From Flavobacteriaceae bacterium (GTDB lineage: Bacteria; Bacteroidota; Bacteroidia; Flavobacteriales; Weeksellaceae), in contig JAITMJ010000147.1 in NCBI GenBank assembly GCA_031277475.1, positions 1 through 39,383 of the forward strand: DNA of 39,383 bases. Reading direction: 5' to 3'. Position numbers and translations under genes: made by a program. The notes under the pieces are model-generated. The model worked only from the letters and a program-made list of their open reading frames with translations. It was not told the origin of the DNA and did not search any database. How positions within the stretch are numbered: position 1 is the first letter of the stretch; each line of letters begins with the position of its first letter. This document shows positions 10,466-33,126 of the stretch, one piece after another.

Positions 10466-10556
10466 TTTAAAAAGTTCAAAGTTTAAGGTTCAACCCTTCG
10501 ACTTCGCTCAGGGTGACAATTAATTCAAGGTTCAAGGTTTAAAGTTTGAGATTTGA
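10466..10556. repeat. Heptanucleotide array plus CTTCGACTTCGCTCAGGGTGA element
   Basis: Two arrays of seven-base units (AAGTTCA, AAGTTTA, AGGTTCA and similar) flank CCTTCGACTTCGCTCAGGGTGACA (10495-10518). The latter is one form of a dispersed element also seen near 17415-17456 and 33081-33104. It fills the gap between pdhA and the Fic gene. Confidence 0.6.
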
Positions 10557-13604: not shown

Positions 13605-13656
13605 CAAAGTTGAGCGATTTTTCAATACAAGTCAATCCCCAGAAATAGTGATTTTT
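13605..13656 (-). promoter_or_regulatory. Promoter of the M23 gene with shared 25-bp element
   Basis: On the minus strand the element containing TCACTATTTCTGGGGATTG (13632-13656) ends in TTG. After 20 bp comes CAACTTTG (13605-13612), one base from the -7 consensus, and the ATG follows 25 bp later. The 25-bp element is identical at 17366-17390 and 17489-17513. Confidence 0.7.
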
Positions 13657-13745
13657 CGAGGTGCGAGATTCGAGATACGAGATGCGAGGTTCGGGGTTCG
13701 GGGTGCGAGATTCGGGTTTCGGGTTTCGGGTTTCGAGATGCGAGT
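13657..13745. repeat. GC-rich heptanucleotide repeat array
   Basis: Some 12 units of seven bases follow each other (CGAGGTG, CGAGATT, CGGGGTT, CGGGTTT and similar), fitting CGRGRTT with small changes. The array abuts the far end of the 25-bp promoter element. The same CGAGGTGCGAG junction occurs next to the element copy at 17478-17513. Confidence 0.75.
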
Positions 13746-15235: not shown

Positions 15236-15302
15236 AAACCCGAACCCCGCATCTCACACCCCGAACCTCGCACCTCGCACCCCGAACCCCGCACCCCGAA
15301 CC
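15236..15302. repeat. GC-rich heptanucleotide repeat array
   Basis: Seven-base units CCCGAAC, CTCGCAC, CCCGCAT and similar run across this stretch. They are the reverse complement of the array at 13657-13745. Confidence 0.7.
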
Positions 15303-17338: not shown

Positions 17339-17390
17339 CAAAGTTGGGATGTTTTTTAATGCGTGTCAATCCCCAGAAATAGTGATTTTT
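17339..17390 (-). promoter_or_regulatory. Promoter of the T9SS surface protein gene with shared 25-bp element
   Basis: The 25-bp element (17366-17390) reads on the minus strand into TTG, then 20 bp, then CAACTTTG (17339-17346), then 20 bp to the ATG at 17318. Layout and spacing equal those of the M23 promoter. Confidence 0.7.
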
Positions 17391-17402: not shown

Positions 17403-17488
17403 TTGGCTAATTGCATGTCACGCTGAGCAATGTCATCCTGATCCTGTCGAAGGGCTGTCGCACCCCGAACCTCGCACCTCGCACCTCG
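17403..17488. repeat. Dispersed TGTCACGCTGAGC/CTGTCGAAGG element and heptanucleotide array
   Basis: TGTCACGCTGAGC (17416-17428) and CCTGATCCTGTCGAAGGG form a degenerate copy of the element near 10495 and 33081. The heptanucleotide array CACCCCGAACCTCGCACCTCG follows. Both sit between the two divergent promoters that carry the 25-bp element. Confidence 0.6.
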
Positions 17489-17540
17489 AAAAATCACTAT
17501 TTCTGGGGATTGATTTTTTTAATTTAAACCCTTTACTTTG
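17489..17540 (+). promoter_or_regulatory. Promoter-like region of the histidine kinase gene with shared 25-bp element
   Basis: The 25-bp element (17489-17513) ends in TTG at 17510-17512. After 20 bp comes TTACTTTG (17533-17540), one base from the -7 consensus. Only 4 bp then remain to the ATG, so the transcript would be leaderless if this is the start site. The copy is an exact inverted repeat of 17366-17390. Confidence 0.6.
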
Positions 17541-31449: not shown

Positions 31450-33018
31450 TTATTTTAATGAATACGAAGTTCCTTCCCTTCCATCTTTCAGTTCGATGCC
31501 GCGTTCCAAGAGTTTGTCGCGGATTTGGTCGGAGAGTTCAAAGTTTTTGGATTTTCGGGCTTGGTTTCTCAATTCGATTAAAATTTGCATCGCTTGGTCG
31601 AGTTTTTCATCGTTGTTTTCTTCGATATTTTGAAAGCCGAAAACGCCATAAACAAAAGCATTCATCAGTGTTTTTAATGCGTTAAAATCTTCGAGAGAAA
31701 TTTGTTCTTTTTCGTCTTTTAATGCAAAAATAAATTTCACGGCTTCAAAAATATGTGCCATCAAAATCGGCGAATTGAAATCGTCTGTCAATGCCTCGAA
31801 ACATTTGGTTTTCCAATCGGAAAATTTGAAATTTGATTCGAGATTCGGGGTTCGGGGTTCGAGGTTCGGGGTTCGAGATTCGGGATTCGAGGTTCGAGAT
31901 TCGAGGTTCGAGATTCGAGATTCGAGGTTCGAGATTCGAGAATTATTAATTATTAATTCTTCATTATTAATAATTTTCACGGCTTCCATCAAGCGTTGAA
32001 ATCCTTTTTCGGCGGCGGTCATCGCTTCGTTGGAAATATCCAAAACACTTCGGTAATGCGCTTGCATAAAGCAAAATCTCACAACGGAAGGATGAAATGC
32101 TTTTTCAAAAAAATCGTTTTCGCCGGAGAGCAATTGCATCGGCAAAATATAATTTCCGGTAGATTTGCTCATTCGTTGTCCGTTCATTGTCAGCATATTA
32201 GCGTGCATCCAATAGTTTACGGTTTCGTGTCCGTTTCCGGCTTTTCCCTGCGCGATTTCACATTCGTGGTGTGGGAATTTCAAATCCAAACCGCCGCCGT
32301 GAATGTCGAATTTTGTTCCCAAATATTTGGTACTCATCACGGTACATTCCAAATGCCAACCCGGAAAACCTTCGCCCCAAGGCGAGTTCCAGCGCATAAT
32401 GTGTTCGGGCGATGCTTTTTTCCAAAGTGCAAAATCGGCGGGATTTTTCTTTTCGTTTTGTCCGTCTAAATCGCGGGTATTGGCGATGAGTTCTTCGATA
32501 TTTCTTCGGGAAAGTTCGCCGTAGTTCAGTCCGCGTTTGTTGTATTCTTCGACATCAAAATAAACAGAGCCGCCGTTTTCGTAGGCAAATCCGGAATTGA
32601 TGAGTTTTTGTGTGAGTTCGATTTGTTCCAAAATATGTCCTGTGGCAGTCGGTTCGATGGTTGGCGGAAGCAGGTTGAAAACGTCCAAAACTTTGTGGAA
32701 ATCAACGGTATATTTCTGCACGATTTCCATCGGTTCGAGTTTTTCGAGGCGAGATTGCTTCACGAATCTGTCGTTTTCCGCAGTTCCGTCGTCCGTCAAA
32801 TGTCCGGCATCGGTGATGTTTCGGACGTATCGCACTTTATATCCGAGAAATTTCAGCGTTCTGAAAATAAAATCGAACGAGATAAATGTGCGCACATTTC
32901 CCAAATGCACGTTGCTGTAAACGGTGGGTCCGCAGACGTACATCCCGATATTTCCTTCCAAAATCGGTTTAAAGATTTCCTTTTCGGCGGTGAGAGAGTT
33001 GTAGATTTTTAAATTCAA
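31450..33018 (-). CDS. cysS: Cysteinyl-tRNA synthetase with in-frame repeat insertion
   Basis: A 522-residue class I enzyme that charges tRNA-Cys. It shows [13 protein letters not shown] (zinc Cys and HIGH-like HLGN), GWHLECTVM and HHECEIA (zinc site), and RMSKSTGN (KMSKS loop). Between the catalytic core and the DALR-type helical domain, after [11 protein letters not shown], lie about 46 extra residues: an Asn-rich [10 protein letters not shown] part and five seven-residue repeats of the form SRISNLE, encoded by the array at 31835-31942. E. coli CysS (461 residues) has no such segment. No ATG start exists: the frame opens with TTG at 33018 ([14 protein letters not shown]), which itself lies in a heptanucleotide array; another in-frame TTG is at 33039. 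Confidence 0.9.
31835..31942. repeat. Heptanucleotide array inside cysS
   Basis: Fifteen units of seven bases (CGAGATT, CGAGGTT, CGGGGTT and one CGGGATT) run without a break. Three units make 21 bp, hence seven codons, which is why the protein shows five heptads. An AT-rich stretch of TTATTAAT repeats follows to 31977. Confidence 0.9.
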
Positions 33019-33126
33019 GGTTTTGGGTTTAAAGTTCAAAGTTTTAGTTTGCGAAATTAATTAAAAGATTTAAAAATTCAACGCTTCGACAGGCTCAGCG
33101 TGACATAAATTCAAAGTTCAAGGTTT
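33013..33126. repeat. Heptanucleotide arrays and CTTCGACAGGCTCAGCGTGACA element at the cysS start
   Basis: AAGGTTT, TGGGTTT, AAAGTTC and similar units cover 33013-33045, including the cysS start. ACGCTTCGACAGGCTCAGCG lies at 33081-33100, and a short array follows to 33126. Confidence 0.65.

Follow-up and report, generated by a model that had tools for sequence, protein, structure and literature searches.

A tandem repeat with a unit length not divisible by three would be expected to be lost from genes, and the question raised by this locus is how fifteen seven-base units came to lie, in frame, within the gene for a cysteinyl-tRNA synthetase (CysRS). The stretch of DNA that was analysed (39,383 nucleotides, here "the window") is one entire contig (C78) of the 2.99-Mb genome of a Chryseobacterium-like member of the Weeksellaceae, a metagenome-like draft in 156 contigs and the one genome by which its genus is represented.

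The cysS gene and its array

The cysS gene occupies positions 31450-33039 on the minus strand as a single, intact copy, with a TTG start at 33039 or 33018 and a reading frame that is open across all 529 codons. No other cysS-like gene was found in the genome, two further low-scoring matches being the array read in other frames. Pfam places the catalytic domain (PF01406, E=2e-96) at residues 23-344 and a DALR_2 match from residue 415, and a solved cysteine-tRNA ligase structure (6ujd_A, E=1.5e-264) aligns on both sides of the insert. Residues of the conserved CysRS motifs are invariant between the window protein and 24 relatives; catalytic domain, conserved motifs and DALR domain together identify a cysteinyl-tRNA synthetase which, judged from its sequence, is intact apart from the loop. 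Compared with its nearest sister gene (L004, see below), the domain that follows the array has diverged by 0.21, 0.12 and 0.45 at codon positions 1, 2 and 3, which indicates that it is still constrained as coding sequence.

The array itself (31836-31940; TRF score 137, unit list) consists of 15 consecutive heptads that read RTTCGRG on the plus strand, antisense to cysS, and CYCGAAY on the cysS coding strand. They encode five seven-residue repeats, or 35 residues (367-401), and are preceded in the protein by 11 residues from five AT-rich heptads of AATTATT type (31941-31975, a TRF row); the preliminary description of this DNA had recognized both the five repeats and an Asn-rich stretch inside cysS. 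At the far end of the loop cassette (31819-31835) lie the degenerate heptads CAAATTTCAAATTTTCC on the coding strand, and the loop as a whole amounts to 67 residues. The head-to-tail run exceeds chance, the longest run of units in Markov simulations of the window (dinucleotide make-up) being 1-2, versus 15 in the array. Folding of the array as RNA gave no excess structure (z -1.09). An error of assembly has to be considered for a genome in 156 contigs whose reads are not available, and we hold it to be highly improbable: the array is built of degenerate units and contains no exact repeat longer than 28 nt, the entire feature spans 142 nt, the frame is kept, and the same cassette ends are found in an independent genome (G238, see below).

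Where the insert lies in the enzyme depends in part on the method. It had been assigned to the linker between the catalytic and helical domains, and the Pfam gap at 344-415 agrees; an AlphaFold model instead puts it between helices 337-358 and 406-418, the first two of the helical domain. The C-terminal part of that model is confident, the catalytic part is poor because the alignment is shallow, and the insert is placed at low confidence (block pLDDT 47-62). The expectation that the site tolerates insertion has been borne out.

The start region of the gene (33018-33075), with its TTG start, is also periodic in seven nucleotides (AACTTTG AACTTTA AACCCAA AACCTTG AATTTAA), and TRF detects heptads at the cysS start of several relatives. 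Scans for promoters and terminators near cysS gave output no better than shuffled sequence, and Rfam had no match within 13000-34000 of the window.

A dispersed family and its published counterparts

Related arrays stand between genes elsewhere in the window, within a few bases of the positions (13657, 15236 and 17460) first reported for them. They comprise 13 units of the RTKCGRG family at 13654-13744 (plus strand), six exact units (15260-15301) with degenerate units at 15239-15302 (minus strand), and four units at 17464-17491 (minus strand), all by TRF and unit list. In the window's genome the pattern (RTKCGRG)x3 has 46 matches, which correspond to about 17 arrays of this unit family as located by pattern search. 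The pattern is found in 72 of 316 Weeksellaceae genomes and 6 of 33 genera; the reversed pattern, as a control, does not occur in any of the 316. The family is dispersed and mainly intergenic: ORF calls place 74 of the 87 arrays that were read in context between genes. ORFs that seemed to hold arrays (at window 17464 and in L229 and L270) were rejected as upstream misassignments of the start codon.

The intergenic arrays have a marked polarity with respect to gene borders. On the G-rich strand, 65 of the 74 have their closest gene on the 5' side. Arrays that begin at most 15 nt downstream of a sense stop codon number 28, and no array is that close to a sense start codon. Some of the sites are orthologous and the gene calls are heuristic, which makes the nominal p of 1e-11 for this polarity an overstatement. 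All six reading frames are open in 88 of 94 arrays, in a setting where about half of all 7-mers are stop-free on both strands. Because a period of 7 is coprime with 3, each of the three frames on a strand of such repeats yields one and the same cyclic heptapeptide, and this property, combined with the lack of stops in the RTKCGRG family on either strand, makes capture by a gene easy.

The closest published parallel is the class of GGGNATC and GGGGA(C/T)T heptamers of Xanthomonas and Nostoc, which are degenerate, G-rich, dispersed and mostly intergenic, with 7-11% touching ORFs, and which closely follow stop codons when in sense orientation or precede start codons when in antisense (Rehm et al. 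2015, PMC4692102). The arrays described here share the degenerate, G-rich seven-nucleotide unit, the dispersed and mostly intergenic distribution, and the position of the nearest ORF on the 5' side of the array on the G-rich strand. They differ in the unit, which is RTKCGRG (NTNCGRG), and in being captured in frame in the linkers of universal genes. The common gene-border polarity suggests, by analogy, that one mechanism may be at work across phyla. A regulatory G-quadruplex on the G-rich strand, as has been considered for the Xanthomonas and Nostoc heptads (PMC4692102), would accord with this shared polarity; it is nevertheless very hard to credit here, since most arrays cannot form four consecutive G3 tracts (9 of 87 can) and the cysS array is not one of those that can.

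A second class, the TAACTGA direct repeats of Beggiatoaceae, Cyanobacteria and some Bacteroidetes, is found mostly before start codons, with some copies inside ORFs, chiefly at protein ends; in forward orientation it places stops in all frames (MacGregor 2015, PMC4679880). These are likewise heptamer direct repeats, present in Bacteroidetes and partly within ORFs, with a different unit. The degenerate heptanucleotides known as STRR in cyanobacteria include some in rnpB and in the tRNA-Leu intron. There, as in cysS, degenerate heptads occupy an essential gene, the difference being that these lie in RNA genes and not in protein linkers. To our knowledge, there is no consensus on the function or the mechanism of bacterial heptamer repeats.

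Heptads beyond the RTKCGRG family are also common. In the 560 kb of DNA flanking cysS in loci L004-L083, period 7 and its double dominate the tandem repeats (22 and 17 arrays, versus 1-6 for periods 6, 8 and 9), and many unrelated units occur, such as TAATGAG, ATCACTT and AATGATG. Two of the intergenic arrays in the window adjoin an identical 23-mer, AATCCCCAGAAATAGTGATTTTT, present at 13634-13656 and 17368-17390 (plus) and at 17489-17511 (minus), so that it makes an inverted pair around the array at 17464. Another dispersed element of 22-23 nt, CTTCGAC-N3/4-CTCAG-NN-TGACA, has 84 exact matches in the genome (control, 0), with copies in the window at 33084-33105, just upstream of cysS, and at 10496-10518.

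The cysS loop in relatives and the origin of the array

Comparison of the loop covered 155 loci from many genera, with 134 distinct loops. Among named genomes, the nearest cysS (79% identity) is that of "Chryseobacterium sp. labscale reactor MAG14" (L004, genome G248). A loop of 31-35 residues is the rule (125 of the 134 distinct loops), and the array is missing from nearly all relatives. The earlier view that the array lies in frame and belongs to a genome-wide heptad family is upheld. No relative was found to carry the same segment as non-repeat DNA.

Heptads of other kinds do occupy the same loop elsewhere. The sister L004 has units of AGCAATC/AGCRGAA type (GGCAATC AGCAATC AGCAATT AGCAGGA AGCGGAA AGCAGAA AGCGGAA), L283 has TTTCAAG units that persist in decayed form in its relatives, L071 and L068 have AGCCAAG-type and AGTTGCC-type heptads, and L014 has different heptads again. 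Codon-shuffle tests were significant (p<0.005) for period 7 in 6 loops and for period 14 in 8, where 0.7 are expected; every other period from 4 to 16 reached that level in 2 loops or fewer. On a cysS tree built without the loop, at least five gains or losses of the heptad state are required, and heptad capture in this loop, as read from the alignments and the tree, is recurrent.

Such recurrence raises the possibility that the loop is selected, either through tuning of CysRS by the heptad peptide or by its length, or because changes in unit number act as a phase-variable switch. The cysS-flanking 560 kb, which were not selected for repeats and are 84% coding, have period-7/14 arrays inside ORFs in cysS alone, three of them in the loop and the fourth elsewhere in the gene, as selection on the loop would predict. 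Yet units and peptides differ between species, most relatives are short-looped, loss of frame would cost the enzyme, which appears to be single-copy, its C-terminal domain, and the same pattern recurs in unrelated ABC-F and PrmC linkers; we regard such selection as quite improbable.

A further relative, G238, belongs to a different genus. Its 22 congeners, whose CysRS proteins are 91-95% identical, have an ordinary 34-residue loop (one of them also has a second, divergent cysS copy with a 31-residue loop), and G238 alone of the 23 carries the cassette, in a loop stretch of 25 residues. The AT part of its loop is identical to that of the window over 30 nt, within the AT-rich heptads at 31941-31975. 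About four TTCGAA/CTTCAAA heptads follow, and then the same end as in the window, CAAATTTCAAAT(A/T)TTC(T/C)GATTGG, its degenerate heptads being common to both genes. The order is the same in the two: AT heptads, TCGAAT-type heptads, and SNFK-F/Y-SDWK. As is clearest in G238, the insert, on comparison of the loops, is a replacement of the loop and not a clean insertion. Counted from the 30-mer to GATTGG, the stretch is 36 nt long in G238 and 123 nt long in the window; the difference of 87 nt equals 12 heptads plus one codon, so that other small indels were involved besides the gain of units.

The exact AT 30-mer occurs in 3 of the 316 genomes, in cysS of the window, in cysS of G238 and at an intergenic site in G283. 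A long gene-conversion tract linking the window and G238 genes was rejected, as the flanks just outside the loop have no raised identity; the cassette must have moved or arisen within very short limits. PriA was considered as a further capture of the 30-mer (1-2 mismatches, several species) and set aside, since the loop is the same length in orthologues that lack it. PriA of L151, L152, L153, L154 and L159 encodes INNEELKIKN or INNEKLIINN, from DNA near-identical to the AT 30-mer and with no change in length.

The original proposal was that an intergenic array had been captured as such. A move of a ready-made array into cysS as a unit, in the manner of a mobile element or through recombination of one array with another, could draw on the occurrence of this unit family in about 17 arrays of the genome and in 72 of the 316 family genomes, and would fit a cassette common to the window and another genus. 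The array itself points elsewhere: none of its 21-mers recurs in the window, the genome holds no further exact match to the AT 21-mer (a single match has 2 mismatches), and no excess RNA structure was seen. Units are also more alike within arrays than between them (0 of 500 permutations at each variable position), as local expansion predicts. We therefore consider a ready-made array to be an unlikely source, and capture of the array as such is not upheld.

The lack of shared 21-mers, the likeness of units within arrays and the short, precursor-like allele in another genus argue for local expansion of a short cassette. Our preferred reading, which we think probable, is that the array is a simple-sequence repeat of degenerate heptanucleotides that lengthened within a tolerant loop of cysS, expanding by slippage from such a cassette. 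A short heptad-bearing loop would have replaced the original loop in one lineage; the near-identical cassette in two unrelated cysS lineages would reflect either a very short transfer or a parallel capture, and slipped-strand replication would then have lengthened the array. Slippage alone does not explain the 30-mer shared by two unrelated lineages. With a 7-nt unit set against a 3-nt codon, later changes in unit number must come in threes or be compensated, and the survivors would be those changes that kept the frame, in steps of three units (21 nt, or 7 codons) or with compensation. From these sequences we infer that slippage is the expansion step and that selection acts for frame and tolerance only; the heptad peptide is most likely a neutral, flexible spacer.

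Heptads in other protein genes

The same pattern is seen in linkers of other proteins. In the window's own genome, an ABC-F ATPase (L146) has RTKCGRG-family heptads in its C-terminal linker, and the G248 orthologue has AACCAGC heptads in the same linker. PrmC of G024 has ATGCGAG heptads in a linker of 49 residues, versus about 21 in most orthologues, and in G156, a close relative of G024, TCTCAAA heptads occupy the same place. FolP of G016 has heptads at its N-terminus. Across the Weeksellaceae, the process proposed for cysS probably delivers fresh sequence time and again, both to the cysS loop and to the linkers of ABC-F and PrmC.

In-frame repeats of other kinds have been described. Rickettsia palindromic elements (about 150 bp, ten families, with a conserved ORF) are fused in frame into metabolic genes (reviewed in PMC10969869). 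They resemble the cysS case in placing repeat DNA in frame within genes, and differ from it in that cysS holds a short tandem array, which lacks an element boundary, an excess fold and a long exact second copy. Tandem repeats of Borgs create new, probably disordered protein segments, and their units within ORFs are always divisible by three (PMC9879509); here, too, tandem DNA repeats make protein segments, with a 7-nt unit that is not divisible by three.

Bacterial heptamer repeats, some of them inside ORFs, are thus already published (TAACTGA, PMC4679880; GGGNATC, PMC4692102), and the initial suggestion that this class of in-frame repeat was without precedent was too strong. What is new is the repeated, parallel capture and turnover of heptads in internal linkers of universal enzymes. 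A search for the RTKCGRG unit family, or for heptads in Chryseobacterium, found no paper, and neither did one for heptads of changing unit captured repeatedly and in parallel by internal linkers of such enzymes, the search being confined to papers open without a subscription. The heptads sit in essential proteins, and sister species carry different units in one and the same loop; such repeats are a recurrent source of new protein linker sequence. A bolder proposal, tentative and on balance doubtful, is that a polar process adding seven-nucleotide units, and following one gene-border rule across Bacteroidota, Gammaproteobacteria and Cyanobacteria, steadily supplies Weeksellaceae linkers, such that the CysRS, ABC-F and PrmC loops are repeatedly overwritten by changing heptads and cassettes pass between genera. 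The short precursor-like allele, the close relatives that lack the cassette and the recurrence at one site make the birth, expansion, decay and exchange of repeats in coding DNA testable in culturable relatives of Chryseobacterium.

Two further observations concern these genes. The folP gene of G016 (L223, 1233-2165) appears to start within a heptad array, which gives its protein an N-terminal extension of HLASRTPHL type. A copy of the dispersed CTTCGAC-N3/4-CTCAG-NN-TGACA element (G000:C154:5784-5806) is itself in frame, encoding SFDSAQDD directly before the heptads of the ABC-F linker (L146).
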